From Fodinibius salinus (GTDB lineage: Bacteria; Bacteroidota; Rhodothermia; Balneolales; Balneolaceae), in assembly GCF_008124865.1 (NCBI RefSeq), contig NZ_VNHY01000001.1:682001-746000 (forward strand): 64,000 nt of DNA, given 5' to 3'. This document shows positions 13,428 to 34,092 of the stretch, one piece after another. The notes beneath the pieces are model-generated. The model had not been told where the DNA came from and ran no database searches. It saw only the letters and a list, made by a program, of their open reading frames with translations. Within the stretch, counting starts at the first letter, position 1, and the number at the start of each line of letters is the position of its first letter. Made by a program: the position numbers and the translations under genes.

Positions 13428-13781
13428 TCAGCCTCACTCGATATGACATCCGTCGATTTCTAAGTGATATCAAAAACCGAAAAAAGCGCGTTAAAGTAAA
13501 CCCCGGGTTGGGTATTTGTTCATAGTTATTAGGTACTTGTTATTGGTTATTCGTTATTTGTTGCGAGGGATCTTTATTCATAGCAATTATTGTTTGGGCG
13601 GTATCAACGATGAATGTGTCTCATAGGCAGGCCGTCATGTTATGTCAACATGTTATAGCACATGGCTGCACCATAATATGCCCCTATAATATTCGATTTT
13701 GCCCTTAACAGCCTTTTATACAACTTACGATCGTTGAACAATAATATTATTATGCAATCACCTAGTTGCGATAATCATAGG
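13428..13781. other. Intergenic gap between recC and the attC array
   Basis: About 350 bases with no credible gene. It holds an AT-rich stretch near 13519-13561 made of repeated GTTATT-like words, and a 6-bp inverted repeat CATGTT/AACATG at 13636-13652. The DNA becomes visibly AT-richer towards the array. It must contain the recC promoter and could contain an old attI or attC end, because the box that opens the first cassette (GTTAGCC) lies right at 13781. No integrase gene or remnant is visible here. Confidence 0.5.
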
Positions 13782-13828
13782 TTAGCCGTACTTCAACTTA
13801 ATTTTAATCTAAATCGGGGTAAGTAGTT

Positions 13829-14233
13829 ATGAAAAGAATAATTTCTTTGTGCGCTTTTTTAATTTTATTATCTGGCTGTGCAAGTGATTTCTATACTAAC
13901 CTTCAGAATGAATCCGAAGGTGAAGAATATGGGAACTTAGCAGTCAAATTATCGGAACCTGTAAATGGTGTAAATGTGACTATTGACGGAGAGTTAATCG
14001 CAAGAGATAAAAATACTGAGTACATAAAAGTAGATAATGTACCTGTAGGTGAACGTTCCGTTAATGTTGATGCTACCAGTTCGGATTTAAAAAGTAACAT
14101 AAATTTAGAGGAAACTGTTAACATTCAAACAAATGAAACGGAGACTTTGTTGGTACAAGTTCCACCTAAAAGTACAGGCTATTGGATTTATATGAGTCTA
14201 GCGTTACTGCCAACATTAATAATTGTTTACTAA
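13829..14233 (+). CDS. Cassette-borne small lipoprotein, PEGA-like
   Basis: A 134-residue protein with a lipoprotein signal: MKRIISLCAF, then lipobox LLSGC at about residues 13-17. The middle (about 35-95) reads like a small beta-sandwich carrier domain (VNGVNVTIDGELI, VPVGERSVNVDA), similar to PEGA or carboxypeptidase-regulatory-like folds. The last 20 residues are a hydrophobic segment (YWIYMSLALLPTLIIVY), so the protein could be anchored at both ends. It is the first cassette of the array. The cassette begins at 13782 with GTTAGCCGTAC and closes at 14254 with GTACGCCTAAC, complementary except for one base. Function is unknown. Confidence 0.75.
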   Translation: MKRIISLCAFLILLSGCASDFYTNLQNESEGEEYGNLAVKLSEPVNGVNVTIDGELIARDKNTEYIKVDNVPVGERSVNVDATSSDLKSNINLEETVNIQTNETETLLVQVPPKSTGYWIYMSLALLPTLIIVY

Positions 14234-14247
14234 TCTCAGAAAAGTAC

Positions 14248-14378
14248 GCCTAACCCGCGCATTAAGTGGGACGTGCCTCGCCGTTGGCTGTCAGTTTCGA
14301 TTTGGTCAGTTTCCGTAGTACATTTTAAAACTAATTCAAGGCTGTTTTGCACGCCCCTTATGCGCAAGGTCGTTATAC
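14248..14378 (+). repeat. attC site 1 (type A)
   Basis: R'' box GCCTAAC (14248-14254) and R' box GTTATAC (14372-14378). The inner arms GCGCATTAAGTGGGACGTGC (14257-14276) and GCACGCCCCTTATGCGC (14349-14365) pair perfectly except for three extra bases in the left arm, the extrahelical bases typical of attC. The central spacer is long and not palindromic. Confidence 0.9.
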
Positions 14379-14411
14379 CACCAAATAGTCATTTTGAATA
14401 AAAAAATCATC

Positions 14412-15059
14412 ATGTCTATTCTAAACAGAAAATACTGGAGAATACTTGAGCAATGGAGCCCTATCCTTTTTTATTTTGCAGGAATTATTTTTCTACTAAG
14501 CTCACTGCAAAATTTTATTGGTCCGATTCCTTACCTATCATTTTTGGGTTATATTCCTATTGGTAGTATTCTATCATTAATTGGTGTACTCAGTTTGTAC
14601 CCAAATCTTTCAAAGAAAGCACCAAACTTGGCACGTGCTGGTTTTTTATTTTTGGTAGTTTCTGTAATTACTATCGTAAGTATTTCTATAATAAGCCCTT
14701 TGCTAAAACTTAATCCAGATCAATCTGTCATTCCAGATTTTATATTGCCTTTCTTTACTTATGGGCAGCTTACTACAGTTTTTCTCACTTATCTTTTATT
14801 TGGAGTTGCAGTATTTAAGTCAAGTTACTACACTCAAATTCTTGGATACTTATTGTTGCTACCTGCTTTATTAGTAGCTGGTGAGTTGCTAATCTTAAAT
14901 CAACAAGCTCAAGGGAAAATTATTAAATGGTTTTTCATCACAGCGCTAAGTATACAGGCTTTGGATTCTTTGGGAATCGGGTATGTAATTTATAAACAAA
15001 GTGAAGCTGCACATACTAAAATTGATAGCGTTTATTCAAGAATAAAAGAGATGGTATAA
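14412..15059 (+). CDS. Cassette-borne multi-pass membrane protein, unknown
   Basis: About 215 residues with six or so hydrophobic segments, starting soon after the attC (the ATG at 14412 is preferred to a TTG at 14394). The pattern is a short basic N terminus (SILNRKYWR), membrane helices to about residue 185, and a hydrophilic C-terminal tail. No motif that I recognise is present, and the overall look is of a DUF4386-like or similar small membrane family (weak). Its TAA stop lies inside the attC R'' box (GTATAAC), so the gene fills its cassette exactly. AT-rich codon use sets it apart from the backbone. Confidence 0.7.
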   Translation: MSILNRKYWRILEQWSPILFYFAGIIFLLSSLQNFIGPIPYLSFLGYIPIGSILSLIGVLSLYPNLSKKAPNLARAGFLFLVVSVITIVSISIISPLLKLNPDQSVIPDFILPFFTYGQLTTVFLTYLLFGVAVFKSSYYTQILGYLLLLPALLVAGELLILNQQAQGKIIKWFFITALSIQALDSLGIGYVIYKQSEAAHTKIDSVYSRIKEMV

Positions 15060-15181
15060 CCCGCGCATTAACGCGGATGCACCTCGCCTACTCTGCCCGT
15101 TTTGTTTTCTGAATGCCAACTAGTAAACTGTAATCGAATTTAAACTGTTCCGTGCGCCGGTTAAGCGCAAGGTCGTTATAC
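15054..15181 (+). repeat. attC site 2 (type B)
   Basis: R'' GTATAAC (15054-15060) and R' GTTATAC (15175-15181). The left arm GCGCATTAACGCGGATGCAC and right arm GTGCGCCGGTTAAGCGC pair with three bulged bases and one G-U type pair. The closing box GGTATAAC is the exact complement of the box that opens this cassette (GTTATACC at 14372). Confidence 0.88.
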
Positions 15182-15248
15182 TGCTTGATTTAAATTCAGC
15201 CCATTAATTACAATTTTAATCAAAAGTAAATTTTTTGAGGTTTTGTTT

Positions 15249-15671
15249 ATGAATGTTCAACAAATCAAAGAACTATCATCGAGTTACATGAAAATTTGGA
15301 ATGCTGGAGAGGAAAATTTGCTCAATGAATTTGCTGCTGATGATTTAATAGTTAACTACACACATTTTGAAAATACATATACCAGCATTTCTGAATACAA
15401 ATCAATGCTACAACAAACCCATGAATTTTTTCCCGATTTAGAAATTACATTAGAAGAAATAATTCCAAGTGAAAATGGACATGGTGCCACAATACATTGG
15501 GAATACAATGGAACTCATAAAAATGGCAACTTATTTGGCGTTGACTCATCAGGAAAGAAAGTAACTGTACAGGGAATGACGTTGCTTAAATTTCAAAATG
15601 GAAAGGTTGTAGAAGAAAAAGGAATAGTAGATAATTTAAGCTTGATGATGCAATTAGGAGCAATAGGTTAA
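15249..15671 (+). CDS. Cassette-borne SnoaL-like / ester cyclase protein
   Basis: A 140-residue single-domain protein of the NTF2 fold. It starts at the ATG at 15249 with a GAGG ribosome site just upstream. SnoaL-type features are the opening helix with IWNAGEENLLNEFAADDLIVNY, the HEFFPDLEITLEEI block, IHWEYNGTHKN, and the closing sheet KVTVQGMTLLKFQNGKVVEEK. Members are enzymes (polyketide or ester cyclases) or binding proteins, so no substrate can be given. It is alone in its cassette, whose ends GTTATACTGC and GCAGTATAAC are perfect 10-base complements. Confidence 0.8.
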   Translation: MNVQQIKELSSSYMKIWNAGEENLLNEFAADDLIVNYTHFENTYTSISEYKSMLQQTHEFFPDLEITLEEIIPSENGHGATIHWEYNGTHKNGNLFGVDSSGKKVTVQGMTLLKFQNGKVVEEKGIVDNLSLMMQLGAIG

Positions 15672-15703
15672 AAAAATGTTGCTTCAATTAATAGTTAATC
15701 GCA

Positions 15704-15834
15704 GTATAACCCGCGCATTATGTGGGACGTGCCTCGCCATCGTTTGGCGATTTCGATTTAGTCAGTTTACGTAGTACATTTTAAAATAAATTTAACGCGA
15801 CTTTGCACGCCCCTTATGCGCAATGTCGTTAGGC
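15704..15834 (+). repeat. attC site 3 (type A)
   Basis: R'' GTATAAC (15704-15710) and R' GTTAGGC (15828-15834). Nearly the same sequence as site 1, including the right arm GCACGCCCCTTATGCGC and the central GTAGTACATTTTAAAA. The left arm has one extra change (ATTATG for ATTAAG). Confidence 0.9.
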
Positions 15835-15866
15835 GTAAATAGAGTACAACTAAAAATTAAGGACAT

Positions 15867-16298
15867 ATGTTCTTTGAATCTGACTTTCACGAAATATTTA
15901 TTCCAGCATTTTTTGCAGTAGTATTATGCATGGTTGGTTATTATTACTGGCAGGGACAAAGAAAAAATGAATTAGAACAAGCAATCTCACTGCTTAAAGT
16001 CAATACTTTTGCTGTGGGTCTTTTAGCGATATTGCTATGGTTTTTGCTTCCTTCCACTCCCTCACTTAGTAGTTTTGGGTTCCCAGAAACAGTAAAAGAA
16101 ATAGAATCTAAAGAACAGTTGCTCAACTATTTGCAGGAGTACAATCAAGCTATCGTTCGTATCACTCAAGTAGTATATTGGTTCATTTTTATTATTGTTT
16201 GGTGGTTTTTGGCTGCTGTCTATTCTGTTACAAAAGTACTTAACAACCAACAAGGCAAAGAATATTTTAAAACCGTAAAAGAGAAATTTTCCGCCTAA
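15867..16298 (+). CDS. Cassette-borne small membrane protein, unknown
   Basis: 143 residues with three hydrophobic segments (about 10-28, 45-62 and 105-125) and short charged loops; I recognise no family. It starts 33 bases after the cassette boundary. Its TAA stop is formed by the R'' box itself (GCCTAAC), so cassette and gene end together. The cassette ends GTTAGGCG and CGCCTAAC are exact complements. A W-rich third segment (FIIVWWFLAAVYS) suggests an integral membrane role. The function is unknown. Confidence 0.7.
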   Translation: MFFESDFHEIFIPAFFAVVLCMVGYYYWQGQRKNELEQAISLLKVNTFAVGLLAILLWFLLPSTPSLSSFGFPETVKEIESKEQLLNYLQEYNQAIVRITQVVYWFIFIIVWWFLAAVYSVTKVLNNQQGKEYFKTVKEKFSA

Positions 16299-16420
16299 CC
16301 CGCGCATTAAGTGGGACGTGCCTCGCCTATCCTGCCCGTTTTCATTTCTTTCTGCCAAATAGTAAACTGTAACCAAATTTACTCTGGCCTGTGCGCCGGT
16401 TATGCGCAAAGTCGTTATAC
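16293..16420 (+). repeat. attC site 4 (A/B hybrid)
   Basis: R'' GCCTAAC (16293-16299) and R' GTTATAC (16414-16420). The left arm is identical to type A (site 1), while the spacer and right arm (GTGCGCCGGTTATGCGC) are type B (site 2). As a result the inner arms pair less well than in sites 1 and 2. Confidence 0.85.
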
Positions 16421-16432
16421 AGAGTTAAGTTT

Positions 16433-17329
16433 ATGAGCAATTTAAGTCTTTTAACAACGCAACTAATACTTCCTCTTCTCTTCATTTTATGGCTCTGGGG
16501 CCGCAGGCATTCAAGTCGGACCCATTGGGTACTGCAAGTTCTTGCCACTACATCGGTAGTATCTTTTTCTCTTGTTGTAGGAGCACAAGCTTGGACGAGT
16601 ATTTACATAGGTAGCCTTTGGTTAATCTTGCTAATTGTTGCTTTTTTAAAATCATTTTTTAGGCTGTCTGAAAACTGGAAGGCCTTCAAATTAGGCGAAG
16701 GGTGGGAAGAAAAAATTTTTACAGTCACAAATATTTTAATTTGCATAATCTTTTTACCGTTGAACATCTATGCCTTTACAGGTTATTTCTCAGTTTCAGA
16801 ATCGGTAGATTTAGGTTTCCCATTAAGAAACGGAGTTTATATTGTAGGTCACGGAGGTAGTAATCCATTAATCAACTATCATAATACAAATAATAGACAG
16901 CGGTATGCTCTTGATATCTCCAAGATCAATGCCTACGGAACTCGAGCTAAGGGCCTTTATCCCAAACAACTTAAATCGTATGCCGTTTATGGAGACACCG
17001 TTTATAGTCCATGTAAGGGAAAAATACAAAAAACGGTTTCCAATTTGGCAGACTATACGCCCCCAAAGCGTAATAAAGAGCATCCTGCTGGGAATCATGT
17101 TATTATTAAATGCGATGAAGTTCGCATTTTCTTAGCGCATTTGATGCAAAGAAGTATTGTTGTAGATAGCGGAAATGTGATCAATCAGGATGTTCCAATC
17201 GGACGTGTAGGAAATTCGGGAAACACATCAGAGCCTCATTTGCATATTCACGCCGTCCAAAACGAAAAAGGCATCCCCATTACTTTCAATGGCCGGTTTC
17301 TGGTTAGAAATAGTCTTATATGGAGGTAA
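16433..17329 (+). CDS. Cassette-borne membrane-anchored M23 peptidase (LytM-like)
   Basis: 298 residues, starting at the ATG at 16433; an upstream in-frame extension would run back into the attC. Residues 1-135 hold four membrane helices. The C-terminal domain is an M23 metallopeptidase: a first His/Asp region (RYALDI in place of the usual HxGxD-type ligand), GNHVIIKCDEVRIFLAHLMQRS, then GRVGNSGNTSEPHLHIHAVQ with the HLHIH zinc and catalytic motif. Such enzymes cut peptide cross-links in peptidoglycan or other glycine-rich peptides. A peptidase in a mobile cassette could act in cell-wall turnover or rival killing (inference). The cassette ends are near-complementary with one base missing. Confidence 0.85.
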   Translation: MSNLSLLTTQLILPLLFILWLWGRRHSSRTHWVLQVLATTSVVSFSLVVGAQAWTSIYIGSLWLILLIVAFLKSFFRLSENWKAFKLGEGWEEKIFTVTNILICIIFLPLNIYAFTGYFSVSESVDLGFPLRNGVYIVGHGGSNPLINYHNTNNRQRYALDISKINAYGTRAKGLYPKQLKSYAVYGDTVYSPCKGKIQKTVSNLADYTPPKRNKEHPAGNHVIIKCDEVRIFLAHLMQRSIVVDSGNVINQDVPIGRVGNSGNTSEPHLHIHAVQNEKGIPITFNGRFLVRNSLIWR

Positions 17330-17343
17330 TCTTATAGAAACTC

Positions 17344-17468
17344 TTATAACCCGCGCATTAAGTTGGACGCACTTACCCTCCCTTGCTCTTTTTGATTTCT
17401 ATGGTACAAATAGGAAACTAGAAATTGGCTTTCTTTTTATTCGCAACTCATACATCAGATCGTTAGAT
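17344..17468 (+). repeat. attC site 5 (degenerate right half)
   Basis: R'' TTATAAC (17344-17350) followed by the conserved CCGCGCATTAAGT. The right arm has drifted (ATTCGCAACTCATACATCAGATC) before R' GTTAGAT (17462-17468). The hairpin would be weak, so this site is probably inactive. Confidence 0.7.
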
Positions 17469-17574
17469 AGCTAAGTTGACAACCAGTAATAATAAAACGA
17501 ACGTTCTATTTATTAAAAACAGCTCCCATTCTGATGTCACTAATATTCTATAAGTAAAGATAGAATCTAGGCTT

Positions 17575-18206
17575 GATGGAAAGTTCAGTTAAAAAAGTAT
17601 AAAACCGTTACATCAGCATTGGCAATTCCATTTTTTCTGTGGACGATGGCCTTCACATTTACCGGCTTTATTCTATCGCAAGCAGATTCACCCATAACAG
17701 TGCCCTATGAGGTTGCTTGGTTTGCTCAGTTCAGTCTACTGTCACGGCTATCTTACTGGTGTGGACCAAGAAAGGTACAAGTAGCGGCAAAGAGCTAATA
17801 AGCCGGCTGATGCGCTGGCGTATTAATCCAACATGGTACGCCGTTGTGCTTTTTACGGCTCCCACTTTGGCTACTTTGGTCTTGTTGTTTAATTATATGT
17901 TAGGATTTGAAACCACAGAATGGGCTATACTCGGTTCATGGGCAGAACTGTGACAGCATATTGGGATATGCAAATTCAGGGACCGGAGGGCCCACTTCAG
18001 GTAATTGATAGTTATACACAGGTAAGCTCTTCGAAGATCACAGTAATTATAATCGTCGCATTTGCCATCGTAGCAGACGGCTTACCTGAGGAACCGGGAT
18101 GGAGAGGATATGACTACCTAAAATCCAAGAACCCCATACTCCACTTGCCACGGGTAATCATCGCCCTATATGCGGCACTCTGACATATTGCTTTTCTGTC
18201 AATGGT
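17575..18206 (+). pseudogene. Decayed CPBP-family intramembrane protease
   Basis: Coding similarity begins at the ATG at 17575 (MESSVK) and immediately shifts frame in a run of six A, continuing as YKTVTSALAIPFFLW. Another shift near 17740 and one near 17950 are needed to keep reading. The hallmark EEPGWRGY (EExxxR glutamates of CPBP/Abi proteases) is present near 18090. The next conserved block should be Trp-His, but it reads TGA-CAT at 18181-18186, so the Trp codon became a stop. The frame then runs a few residues (HIAFLSM) before it meets the TetR remnant. A functional product is not expected. Confidence 0.75.
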
Positions 18207-18658
18207 AAGGAACACATTGTAGAGTCCATCGCTGAAAAAAGCCGCAGTTCAACTCAGTTCTTTTTAAGGATGTTCAACACTCCCATTCAAGAGAAAAAGT
18301 CTTACAGAAAATATTGCGAATATCTCTCAAACCTTTTGCTGAAGCAACAAAAAAAAGACCAATTAACAATGAAAATTCGCCTGTAGAGTGAAACCCAAGA
18401 ATCCGAAAAAATACGTGGGATTCTCAAAGAGAATTATGCCAACATCCAAAAGAAAATCATGGGCTTCCTTGAAGAACACGCACCCAAGAACAAAGAGGAA
18501 CAGAACGTTCCGTTGAAGAATCAGCCCGAATTATTATTGCCACTTACCAAGACCTGGTCTTGCAGATGATCCTGAATGAGAACGTAAGTCCAGCGAATTT
18601 CATGGGCTATTTGGCGTATTTATTTACAAATCACGATTCATTAAGAAAAATACTGTAA
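18207..18658 (+). pseudogene. Decayed TetR-family regulator, ligand-binding part only
   Basis: From 18207 the frame reads KEHIVESIAEKS, the usual segment that follows the helix-turn-helix in TetR proteins. A helical domain follows (YRKYCEYLSNLLLKQQ, IRGILKENYANIQKKIMGFLEEH), ending with ARIIIATYQDLVLQMIL and a stop at 18656-18658. It has an in-frame TAG near 18390 and a frameshift near 18505. The DNA-binding N terminus is absent, having been replaced by the end of the CPBP pseudogene, so a deletion joined the two genes. The family call rests on helix pattern, not on a catalytic motif. Confidence 0.5.
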
Positions 18659-18718
18659 CAATGCTTTATCCCAATTAGTATAATTTCAAAACAACTTACC
18701 AACAAATAATCTAACTGA

Positions 18719-19018
18719 CATGAAATATTTAATATTTCTGTTTTCTCACTAATGTTTCACACTCCTAATCTCACACGATGGCACCATTAAAAATACAGCC
18801 TTAAACTATATTGAAGACTGTATACGGGAAATGTGGAGTGGATGGACGAAGCATCCACCCCAAAATCGCAAAACGATTAGTGGGTCAAAGTCCAAAGAAT
18901 GGCAACTGGGTGGTCTCTGAGCAAGATGCCTAAACACTAATAAAGTATACTGAAAAAGGTGCTGGTACTCGAGTTCCAGAAAATAACCGACCAAAAGACT
19001 ATCTGGAAAAGTAACTGA
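18719..19018 (+). pseudogene. Decayed secreted NTF2-like (lumazine-binding-type) protein
   Basis: Starts MKYLIFLFS, which would be a signal peptide, then hits a stop. Shifting frames gives TALNYIEDCIREMWSG, ALHPKIAKRLVGQSPKNGNW and KYTEKGAGTRVPENNRPKDY, which follow the known pattern of small NTF2-like proteins with a conserved HP-KR motif. At least three frameshifts or stops are needed. The following 19020-19150 carries another short coding-like piece (LADIKALTVDEDWSGPKFV) of a gene I cannot name. Confidence 0.55.
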
Positions 19019-19152
19019 TTGTACCTTACGAAGGTGGGGAAAATAGCCCGAGAATTTGTTTTACAAAATTGGTTGGCGGACATCAAAGCCTTGACTGTTG
19101 ATGAAGACTGGAGCGGGCCAAAGTTTGTTAATCGCAAGAAAGACCGAAATTG

Positions 19153-19800
19153 ATGAATTCTTTTATACAGAAAATTAAAAATAAGATATGGACACAGCTT
19201 CTCATCATTTATACGCGATACCTCATTGGCGGGGCTTTTGTCTTTGCCAGTATAATCAAGGTAAAAGGCAAACGGTTTACAACAGAAAGTGGGGCTGAGT
19301 ATTCTATTGATACGGCTTGGCATTTATTTGAAACGATGTATCAGTCGGGACTATATTGGCAATTCTTGGGTATTAGTCAATTGGTCGCCGGCTTCCTGCT
19401 TATGACACAGCGTTACTCAAAGCTGGGAGCACTGCTGTTTTTACCAATTATCGGCAATATATTTGTGATCACACTCTCCTATTATTTTGCTTATACACCG
19501 GTTTTAACCGGCATGATGCTTGTTGCCAATTTGATGCTCGTCGCATGGGATTGGAATGAACTGAAGGTACTTTTTAACCGAACCCCAGTGATGAGTTCCG
19601 ATAATAGACTTGAAAATAAACCTGTGTGGGAATGGACTGGTTTGGCGCTTTTTATATTTACGGCCATCTACCACGTAATTAACAATGGGCATGATATCAA
19701 ATTCTGGAGTCTCATCTGTATCCTCATAGGATTGGTTGGTTTAGGAATCGGACTCTGGAAACACAAGATAAATGCCGACTCCATCTCTTTAGGCAAATAG
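19153..19800 (+). CDS. DoxX-like integral membrane protein
   Basis: 215 residues, with the ATG at 19153 preferred to the TTG three bases earlier. Four to six membrane helices are present, opening with the DoxX-type first helix (YTRYLIGGAFVFASIIKVKGKRF), then GLYWQFLGISQLVAGFLLM and a Tyr-rich third helix. A longer C-terminal extension adds two more helices (about 155-205). DoxX relatives are linked to quinone or redox metabolism, but this member cannot be assigned. It is intact, although it lies within a stretch of decayed genes, and it is oriented like a cassette gene. No attC separates it from the pseudogenes upstream. Confidence 0.7.
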   Translation: MNSFIQKIKNKIWTQLLIIYTRYLIGGAFVFASIIKVKGKRFTTESGAEYSIDTAWHLFETMYQSGLYWQFLGISQLVAGFLLMTQRYSKLGALLFLPIIGNIFVITLSYYFAYTPVLTGMMLVANLMLVAWDWNELKVLFNRTPVMSSDNRLENKPVWEWTGLALFIFTAIYHVINNGHDIKFWSLICILIGLVGLGIGLWKHKINADSISLGK

Positions 19801-20156
19801 TCTTTCCTGTTATTATCACACAAAACGAAACATGGGAAAGTGAAGATGCCTTTCTCAATTATTGCGTGCTCTATATTTTCTGTTTCCGCCACTGTCCTTA
19901 TCCCCCGATATCAGTTGTTAGAGCACTTGGCCACCGACTTTACGGGGCCGTCAAAGCTGCCAAAGAGATCTTGCAACAATCGGCAGCTGGTGGGTAGGTT
20001 GGCCTCCCTAATTACTTTTACGTAGCCATTAATTGCTACATTTACCATACCATTAGTATGAAGAGCGATTCCTCTGTAAGTCATGAGGTCTTCCTTGGAT
20101 CAGTTATAGTTGATTATCGCTAATCTAAGTGCCCCCCGAATGCTCAGGCTTTTTAG
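19801..20156 (+). other. Gene-poor stretch with a short coding remnant
   Basis: About 355 bases with no intact gene. Near 19905-19987 one frame reads ISVVRALGHRLYGAVKAAKEIL and ends in a stop, looking like the C terminus of a deleted flavin- or NAD-binding enzyme. I cannot name the parent gene. The remainder shows nothing recognisable before attC site 6. Confidence 0.4.
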
Positions 20157-20284
20157 AAAGATCTCGCGCATTAACACAGCAAGTCACGCCATCTGCTTGC
20201 CTCCCTTTCATTTATTAGCTAATCTATCATTTTCAAATTAATTCGAGATTCTTGCGTCTGCCCCTTATGCCAAGGTCGTTAGTC
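20157..20284 (+). repeat. attC site 6 (left box decayed)
   Basis: The left box is degenerate (AAAGATC at about 20157-20163), but TCGCGCATTAAC follows as in sites 1-5. The right end CTGCCCCTTATGCCAAGGTC and R' GTTAGTC (20278-20284) are well kept. Confidence 0.7.
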
Positions 20285-20290
20285 CATCAC

Positions 20291-21355
20291 TTATAAGCTG
20301 GAAAGAGATTGTTTAAGTTGACGGACAGCACGGTGAGCACTTTCAACCACGCCATCCATATAACCTGGAAATTCTGTTGCGGTTTCTGATCCTGCAATGA
20401 GTAACCGTTTATCAAGAAAAGCTTTTTGGAATATGGCGTGACCGTTGTGTTGATGTGGTACAATAGGTTGTTCGTAATTGCTGTAGGAAAAGGGCTCTTT
20501 TTGCCAAACCAATTCCCGATATGATTGGTAGCTGTCAACCTTCCCGCCGTAGAATCGGCGGAGTTGTTCAATGACTAATTGCTTTCGCTCTTCACGAGAT
20601 ACAGCTTGATAATCATTATTCATAAATCCCTTTAAGGCGTATTGGTTATCAGTTGAGTGATCATACATTTCACTAACAGGGCCCACATTGCTAAAGATCG
20701 TCCCGCTTGAATCTGTATTTCGCCAAAAAGGTTCATCAAAGGTGAGAGCGACTTTGATGGATTCCGCCATCCAGGTATGTGTTTGGGAGGCAATATGCGT
20801 AAGCTCCTCAGGTAGAGAAGGAGAAAAATCAACATTATCGACCAAAAGTTTAGGTGGGAGTGTGCTAATTGCGACATCAGCCTTGAAAAGGTCATTTTCT
20901 GTCTCAATTACTAACTTTGTATCGGTTTGCCGAATGGTTTGTACCGCTTGGTCTATATGAATTTGTCTTTGGTCAAGCCCCTCTTCCAATGTTTGGATTA
21001 CGTTGTCCGTTCCACCTGCAATTCGGTAACTCGGTTCTTCGTTTGGTGGTAAATCAACAAGCTGTGGCGGTGAAACTGACATAGGCTCGTAGTATCCTTT
21101 GTCTCCCATATATTGCTGGTAAATATCGATACCTAGATCATCTAATAAATCCAGTAAATGACGATGCTTTTTCCCCAGCCAAGTAGCTCCCATCTCTATG
21201 GGAGGTTCATCATCTGATCTCAATGTATATATACGTCCCCCCAGCCGATTTCTTGCTTCTATAATTTGAGGTCTTAATCCTTCTTTTTGGAGTAAATAAG
21301 CGATGAGCAGACCAGAAAAGCCGCCTCCGATAATGACAATATTAGAAGTTTTCAT
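20291..21355 (-). CDS. FAD-dependent amine oxidase / NAD(P)-binding protein, reversed in its cassette
   Basis: 354 residues. The N terminus is a Rossmann FAD-binding motif (VIIGGGFSGLLIAYLL) with the Arg-rich second motif ARNRLGGRIYTL, and the C terminus has the FAD-contacting IAGSETATEFPGYMDGVVESA. This is the flavin amine oxidase (monoamine oxidase-like) family, which oxidises amines or related groups; the substrate is unknown. It is shorter than MAO (about 450) but in the range of small bacterial members. It reads against the array direction, although its cassette ends (GTTAGTCCATCAC at 20278 and GAATGGCTAAC at 21429) still match with one indel. Confidence 0.85.
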   Translation of the reverse strand: MKTSNIVIIGGGFSGLLIAYLLQKEGLRPQIIEARNRLGGRIYTLRSDDEPPIEMGATWLGKKHRHLLDLLDDLGIDIYQQYMGDKGYYEPMSVSPPQLVDLPPNEEPSYRIAGGTDNVIQTLEEGLDQRQIHIDQAVQTIRQTDTKLVIETENDLFKADVAISTLPPKLLVDNVDFSPSLPEELTHIASQTHTWMAESIKVALTFDEPFWRNTDSSGTIFSNVGPVSEMYDHSTDNQYALKGFMNNDYQAVSREERKQLVIEQLRRFYGGKVDSYQSYRELVWQKEPFSYSNYEQPIVPHQHNGHAIFQKAFLDKRLLIAGSETATEFPGYMDGVVESAHRAVRQLKQSLSSL

Positions 21356-21432
21356 AACAGTGTTAAGTGACGAGCATTAAAGAGAATGAAAGGTATAGAT
21401 TCGGAGGTGTTGGCACAAACCTGGCCGTGAAT

Positions 21433-21549
21433 GGCTAACCCGAACATTAAGCGGCCAGGGCTTGCCACTTTCTGGCTTTTCCCTTTTCGTTCGTTATTCA
21501 CCAGCTCAACATTCATTCACGTGCCCACTTATACGCAAGGTCGTTAGGT
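21433..21549 (+). repeat. attC site 7
   Basis: R'' GGCTAAC (21433-21439), left arm with ACATTAAGCGGCCAGGGC, right arm CGTGCCCACTTATACGCAAGGTC, R' GTTAGGT (21543-21549). It is shorter and more diverged than sites 1-4. No matching closing box for GTTAGGTGTTTAACG was found downstream. Confidence 0.75.
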
Positions 21550-31348: not shown

Positions 31349-31480
31349 TCATAACTATCGCATTAGCACGTCAAGGTCTGCCCCTTTTGGCTTTTTAGCT
31401 TTCCATTCGTTATTTAACAACTCAACATAATTCGTGCCGTCCTTATGTAAACGATATAGTAAGCCGTAAAGTCGTTACAG
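31349..31480 (+). repeat. attC site 10
   Basis: R'' TCATAAC (31349-31355) with TATCGCATTAGCACG. The right end is CGTGCCGTCCTTATGTAAACG, a short extra piece, then GTAAAGTC and R' GTTACAG (31474-31480). An internal duplication or insertion seems to have altered the right arm. Confidence 0.6.
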
Positions 31481-32324: not shown

Positions 32325-32447
32325 TCTATAATCCGCCTTATCAAGATATGCCCTGCATCAACTGCCCGTTTTGCATTGCTCAATTTCTGTAGTACATTTT
32401 TTTATCAACGCTGGGCTGCACACTCGTTAAACGCAATATTATTAGGC
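32325..32447 (+). repeat. attC site 11
   Basis: R''-like CTATAAT (32325-32331) and R'-like ATTAGGC (32441-32447, G changed to A). The closing CACTCTATAAT complements the cassette opening box GTTACAGAGCTG (31474) with two changes and one deletion. The centre shares 37 of 38 bases with remnant 8. Confidence 0.7.
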
Positions 32448-33401: not shown

Positions 33402-33527
33402 CTATAACCAGCACTTCAAACGGACAAGCCGCGCCAAATCTTGCCCCCATCCTATTTTTTAGCTAACCTTTCGGTAGTAATCAATTTCAAAACATTGGCG
33501 TACCCCATGTACGCAAGGTTGTTATAT
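33402..33527 (+). repeat. attC site 12
   Basis: R'' CTATAAC (33402-33408), left arm diverged (CAGCACTTCAAACGG), right end GGCGTACCCCATGTACGCAAGGTT and R' GTTATAT (33521-33527). Confidence 0.7.
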
Positions 33528-33565
33528 GGCTTATTTTTTGCTCAATCCTCAAACGTCTGAAAATT

Positions 33566-34017
33566 ATGAAAACAATATTCGATCAAGCAACAAGGGATGA
33601 ATTAATCAATAGAATCAATTCTCTTAATAAAAATAGTGAGGCACAATGGGGTAAAATGAATATTAAACAGATGATAAGACATTGTATATAATGTGGGACG
33701 AAGTGACATTAGGCAAGAGAACGGTCAAACAACTATTCTTGAGCAGATTATTTGGCAAGATGATTCTAAAAGGATTTGTAAAAGATGATAGCCCACTGAA
33801 ACGATATTTACCTGCAGTTGATGGAATTAAAGTAAAATAAACTATTTACAATGATTTCAATTCCGAAAAAAAAGAAGTGGATTTCCTTAATTAAAAAATA
33901 TCCACGATTATCAGATCACGACTTTGAACTACCATTTTCGGAAAAGTAACAAAAGAGCAAGCCGGCTATTTAGCTTATAAACACCCAGATCATCATCTAA
34001 GGCAGTTTAATGTATGA
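33566..34017 (+). pseudogene. Decayed DUF1569 (DinB-like) protein
   Basis: Starts MKTIFDQATRDELINRIN with a good reading frame, which breaks near 33690 (IRHC followed by stops). It continues in another frame as MWDEVTLGKRTVKQLF and SRLFGKMILKGFVKDDSPLK, breaks again near 33838, and ends HPDHHLRQFNV. This order matches DUF1569 proteins, whose His residues sit at the HC and HPDHH blocks. At least two frameshifts make it inactive. The cassette has perfect complementary ends (GTTATATGGC and GCCATATAAC), so it was mobile before it decayed. Confidence 0.7.
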
Positions 34018-34032
34018 ATCAGTAATAACGCC

Positions 34033-34092
34033 ATATAACCGGAGTGTTAACCGTAGATACCGATCCATAGGCGCAGTGTAAGATCGTTACAC
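34033..34092 (+). repeat. attC site 13 (short form)
   Basis: R'' ATATAAC (34033-34039) and R' GTTACAC (34086-34092) only 60 bases apart, like the short attC sites of mobile integrons. The inner arms GGAGTGTTAACC and GCGCAGTGTAAGATC are partly related to the others. Confidence 0.65.

Follow-up and report, generated by a model that had tools for sequence, protein, structure and literature searches.

Complementary own ends of gene cassettes in an integron array of Fodinibius salinus and the extent of their pairing across lineages

In the integron literature, cassettes are excised via circles and recombined through the bottom strand, and passages of Bouvier et al. 2009 (PMC2727003) report that most cassettes show self-pairing over 9-11 consecutive nt and that tyrosine recombinase binding sites measure 9-13 bp. 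A passage of a 2017 mBio paper (PMC5371416) adds that the variable R' bases need not complement R'' in the array. Clusters of attC sites lacking an integrase are termed CALIN in the abstract of PMC7923331, and a complete integron of Salinibacter ruber M1 is mentioned in the text on IntegronFinder 2.0 (PMC9024848). A literature search returned no paper combining integron and attC with Balneola or Rhodothermia, a search that papers using other names would escape, and the names searched for the host group were absent from a paper on integrons of hypersaline sites.

Here we describe an array in Fodinibius salinus, a member of the Balneolaceae related to Aliifodinibius. The window, meaning the whole stretch of DNA that was analysed, comprises 64,000 nucleotides and forms part of contig C1 (682,001-746,000) in a genome of 2.86 Mb. 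Its cassettes open with a GTT... box, the core of an integron attC site, and close with the inverse core (...AAC). The system is an ordinary integron, and the matching of each cassette's own ends is a good instance of an already published property; the addition over known work is a between-lineage difference in the average extent of own-end pairing. Taken together, the data very probably describe a Balneolaceae integron array in which own-end arms of about 10-12 bp pair in the circle and would be kept for reinsertion.

The attC array and its attI-like platform

Covariance models were used to locate attC sites because pattern scans either missed sites or drowned in chance matches: a strict GTTRRRY scan missed GTTATAC, and another pattern matched 82 times on one strand and 71 on the other, where five shuffles gave 67-84, which is chance level. 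The first model (R1), which draws on ten of the host's own attC sites and leaves the R boxes unpaired, was searched on the host genome and its relatives. At least 31 attC sites at E<=1 were found in the host genome (150 of 1,044 candidates scored), with the layout R''-L''...L'-R' and scores of up to 140 bits. Rfam at its gathering threshold gave no match in the window, a result that is uninformative about attC.

The window array spans 13,781-34,100, with an attI-like copy at its head (Table 1). Four strong attC sites were detected by R1 within 14,248-16,420, followed by mostly weaker ones onward to 33,527. Cassettes 1-5 each carry one + strand ORF of at least 90 aa in the direction of the array, and cassette 4 is additionally overlapped by an ORF of 115 aa on the - strand (16062-16409); beyond cassette 5, ORFs lie on both strands. 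The long stretch 17500-20150, flanked by degenerate attC sites, has few long ORFs and looks like decayed cassettes. At a distance from the integrase, lower-scoring attC sites, clustered or single, were also seen at C1:163-165 kb, C2:272-276 kb and C1:912 kb.

Table 1. Coordinates within the window of the attI-like copy, cassettes and attC sites
Feature	Positions	Strand	Details
Putative attI-like platform, second genome copy	13637..13785	+	97% identity over 149 bp to C1:584939-585087
Cassette 1	13781..14254	+	ORF 13829-14233, 134 aa, without Pfam match; 12/13 end bases match, mismatch at position 6
attC of cassette 1	14248..14378	+	cmsearch R1 140.3 bits; among the ten model sites
Cassette 2	14372..15060	+	ORF 14394-15059, 221 aa, without Pfam match; own-end run 9
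attC of cassette 2	15054..15181	+	R1 115.3 bits; in model
Cassette 3	15175..15710	+	ORF 15243-15671, SnoaL-like; own-end run 10
attC of cassette 3	15704..15834	+	R1 133.9 bits; in model
Cassette 4	15828..16299	+	ORF 15867-16298, 143 aa, without Pfam match; own-end run 8
attC of cassette 4	16293..16420	+	R1 119.7 bits; in model
Cassette 5	16414..17350	+	peptidase M23 domain ORF, listed as 16391-17329 with an in-frame ATG read by eye at 16433; own-end run 6
attC of cassette 5, degenerate	17344..17468	+	R1 48.5 bits
attC, degenerate	20157..20284	+	R1 44.3 bits
attC closing cassette 20278-21439 (own-end run 5)	21433..21549	+	R1 87.6 bits; in model
Weak attC-like site	31349..31480	+	R1 25.9 bits
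attC, degenerate	32326..32447	+	R1 49.5 bits; flanking cassettes both own-end run 0
attC preceding last cassette	33402..33527	+	R1 90.6 bits; in model
Last cassette of the sequence-only reading	33521..34039	+	own-end run 10; own attC from ~34033 by eye, missed by R1

The only full-length integron integrase found in the genome (319 aa, C1:583,917-584,858) lies 111 kb from the window array; a genome-wide profile search placed it in the intI subfamily (TIGR02249, 440.1 bits, cut-off 265), and no integrase match of the searched genome fell inside the window. Between this gene and the first cassette beside it lies a putative attI site, recognised by position and copy (C1:584939-585087, L015:4939-5087) and followed by a short array of five closed cassettes, the first defined by eye and four included in the 99-cassette set below. 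The copy at the head of the window array was the sole further match to this region at E<=0.001 in a search of the genome. It has no adjoining integrase gene and ends at GTTAG, the start of the first cassette. Next to this end of the array, a recBCD-like operon begins on the opposite strand.

The genome carries three attI-like platforms but one full integrase. The third copy (L025:6271-6438), more diverged and recognised by BLAST over 34 bases only and otherwise by eye, heads an attC cluster at C1:787-794 kb. A 103-aa ORF on the - strand (C1:583274-583585, L015:3274-3585), immediately downstream of the complete integrase gene, matches the N-terminal third of integron integrase (TIGR02249, 98-100 bits), which suggests a tandem duplication followed by loss. 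Integrons are common in the host's class: an integron integrase match at E<=1e-70 was obtained in 93 of the 195 class genomes drawn, the host genome and its relatives being counted.

Complementarity between the two ends of a cassette

The sequence-only reading had paired the box opening each of four cassettes with the box closing the same cassette, and all four pairs were present where it placed them. Counted from the G of GTT, the exact runs were 10 (15175/15710), 8 (15828/16299), 10 (33521/34039) and, where the reading had given 8, 9 (14372/15060). Of the 24 possible pairings of the boxes of these four cassettes, the true one was the best: it had 24 matches at positions 5-11, compared with an average of 13. 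The reading had also proposed to test whether complementarity within cassettes exceeds that between cassettes; it did so for the nine definable window cassettes, where 536 of 362,880 permutations reached the true value. Among the five cassettes that it had not quoted, 13781-14254 has a run of 5 but agrees at 12 of its first 13 bases. The other four match poorly (runs 6, 5, 0, 0), and this counts against the reading preferred here.

For a larger test, a cassette was taken to lie between two attC sites that follow each other on the same strand, and had to be 150-2,500 bases long. From 131 of the 143 R1 matches, partial or weak ones being left out, this yielded 99 cassettes of this genome and its relatives (98 for the lineage comparison, one duplicate having been dropped). 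Their own-end runs averaged 8.63 against 4.29 when permuted (largest of 5,000 permutations 4.75), and none of the 5,000 permutations reached the observed value on any of five measures. Matches at positions 8-14 numbered 4.40 for own ends and 2.05 for permuted ones, and runs of at least 9 were found in 63.6% of own pairings compared with 1.3% of permuted ones. Ends that adjoin each other in the array, forming the linear attC, had a mean run of 4.40 and none of 73 reached 9. The ends of one cassette thus pair with each other and those meeting at an array junction do not, as expected of a site that is complete only after excision. The complementarity is therefore a feature of the circular cassette, which is indirect evidence for the excised-circle signature that had been proposed. 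A start and an end that match each other but not their neighbours also constitute a clean test for distinguishing true cassettes from chance repeats.

Across the 99 cassettes, the own match at positions 5-11 was 0.88, 0.82, 0.85, 0.84, 0.85, 0.75 and 0.77 (background 26-48%), fell to 0.48, 0.37 and 0.34 at positions 12-14, and reached background level from about position 15. Positions 8-9 carry all four bases in this set. Own-end matching was related to attC score only weakly in the host (rho 0.33, p 0.13, n=22) and not at all in the relatives (rho 0.04, n=77). Both results count against the preferred reading, and they do not establish that ends decay once function is lost.

Extent of the paired arm across lineages

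The pairing, restricted to a cassette's own ends, has an outer limit that differs on average between lineages: it fades after position 9 in 23 loci outside Balneolota, after 10-12 in Balneolales and after about 14 in one other Rhodothermia array. For this comparison a second covariance model was searched on integrase loci spanning many phyla, with 131 of 134 attC matches used (three cut by a contig end were left out), 16 of 18 (two lone sites were left out) and 78 of 78. The group outside Balneolota comprised 78 cassettes from 23 loci after removal of one duplicate, with taxa as titled (L104 only as 'bacterium'). Locus L081, labelled Chitinophagaceae and contributing one cassette, was placed with Balneolota, as it ranked third by E-value in the integrase search with 59% identity. 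A hold-out of Balneolaceae provided 44 cassettes from 11 of 15 loci, 14 of 58 having been removed as repeats of earlier ones or of each other; three of the 44 come from L184, which, judged by identical scores, belongs to the same genome as L082.

Outside Balneolota, the own match was 0.62 at position 9 and 0.37 at position 10 (background 0.29; 78 cassettes), and of the 34 cassettes whose run is 9 or longer, position 10 matches in 15 and position 11 in 10. In the first Balneolales set the corresponding counts were 62 and 63 of 73. The hold-out matched at 80% or more up to position 10, at 52% at position 11 and at 32% at position 12, and its runs were 9 or longer in 32 of 44 cassettes but in none of 28 linear neighbours; of those 32, 30 match at position 10 and 20 at position 11 (Fisher p 1e-5 and 0.013, values that are optimistic, cassettes of one array being non-independent). 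The Balneolales arm is stated as 10-12 because pairing in the hold-out weakens at position 11. Tested per locus, positions 10-11 gave p 0.0006 in the first set, which includes the model-building loci, and a non-significant p 0.06 in the hold-out alone. Full matching at positions 10-11 also occurs in four single-cassette loci outside Balneolota, and the lineage difference is therefore one of averages.

Longer arms were observed in a single locus from another Rhodothermia family (L174, G090:C25:42501-51400), where all eight cassettes have runs of 12-15 with a median of 14. In Balneolales, arm length followed neither attC length nor the energy of the inner hairpin, a result counted against the preferred reading, and outside Balneolota the run was related to attC length with rho 0.27 (p 0.02, n=70). 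These observations suggest that arm length is lineage-dependent.

Mechanism, alternatives and known systems

A cassette consists of one gene and one attC site, and excision by the integrase would join its first bases (TTRRRY and beyond) to its own attC. In the resulting circle, one arm of a bottom-strand hairpin would come from the R'' box that closes the cassette and the other from the R' box that opens it. An attC within the array instead carries the start of the next cassette, with arms matching by consensus only. A circle that folds well would reinsert well, and own-end pairing, about 10-12 bp here, would in this way be maintained; we infer that the outer bases stay paired through selection acting when cassettes are reinserted.

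Folding calculations agree with such an advantage. The bottom-strand hairpin was predicted to be stabler in the circular attC than in its linear counterpart, with mean differences of 5.6 kcal/mol for the first Balneolales set (87 of 99 cassettes more stable), 6.4 kcal/mol for the hold-out (41 of 44) and 3.2 kcal/mol outside Balneolota (62 of 78), and exchanging the own start for a random other start in the first set returned the predicted energy to that of the array form (-17.8). Among seven attC sites, compensatory change was found in 6 of 18 predicted pairs. The covariation term given by RNAalifold on these sites was unfavourable (+1.31), which is counted against the preferred reading, and single-strand folds of the seven linear sites (z -2.39 to 0.95) were mostly no better than shuffles.

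As tyrosine recombinase binding sites span 9-13 bp, the integrase footprint is a plausible limit to the arm. A further elaboration, which we consider doubtful, is that the own-end match acts as a length-tuned substrate label: only the free circle would present a full integrase arm, the arm at array junctions being broken, so the integrase would favour insertion over excision, and arm length would have evolved with the integrase.

Alternatively, the end match might arise by copying rather than selection, with repair of mismatches in the hairpin, or the replication that resolves an insertion intermediate, making the two arms co-evolve. Such copying would likewise act within one cassette and end where the hairpin ends, and would need no sequence preference, in keeping with the four bases seen at positions 8-9; alone, however, it leaves the lineage-dependent limit unexplained, and we judge it unlikely. 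Still less probable is a fossil of cassette birth, in which both ends descend from one palindromic precursor and have drifted since. The pairs are indeed specific to each cassette, as a fossil would require, but many cassettes still match to at least 9 (32 of 44 in the hold-out), and the average length varies by host lineage; had unequal precursors drifted, the limits should be more ragged. Chance, or inverted repeats of another kind (transposon ends, terminators), is hardly credible even though inverted repeats flank many elements, being contradicted by the attC homology, by the genome's integrase and attI, and by the result of 0 in 5,000 permutations.

The array can be set beside several known systems. 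The integron of Salinibacter ruber M1, a species which we take to belong to the same wider group as the host, comes from a lineage different from the host's. The host IntI is 47% identical to IntI1 of class 1 integrons, and these share the own-end match in the only two records examined, where the aac(6')-Ib cassette has a run of 12 and, by eye, aac(6')-IIa has a run of 8 followed by one mismatch and cmlA8 a run of 8.

Like a CALIN, the window array has no adjoining integrase gene; unlike one, it retains its own attI-like site, 97% identical to that beside intI. The chromosomal integron arrays treated in passages of PMC2727003 resemble the present array in their GTT/AAC boxes, in the L''/L' inner stem and in own-end pairing that continues past the 7-nt box. 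The median attC length is 124 here and, in contrast to the 9-11 nt given there, pairing extends on average over 10-12 positions in Balneolales and about 14 in the other Rhodothermia array.
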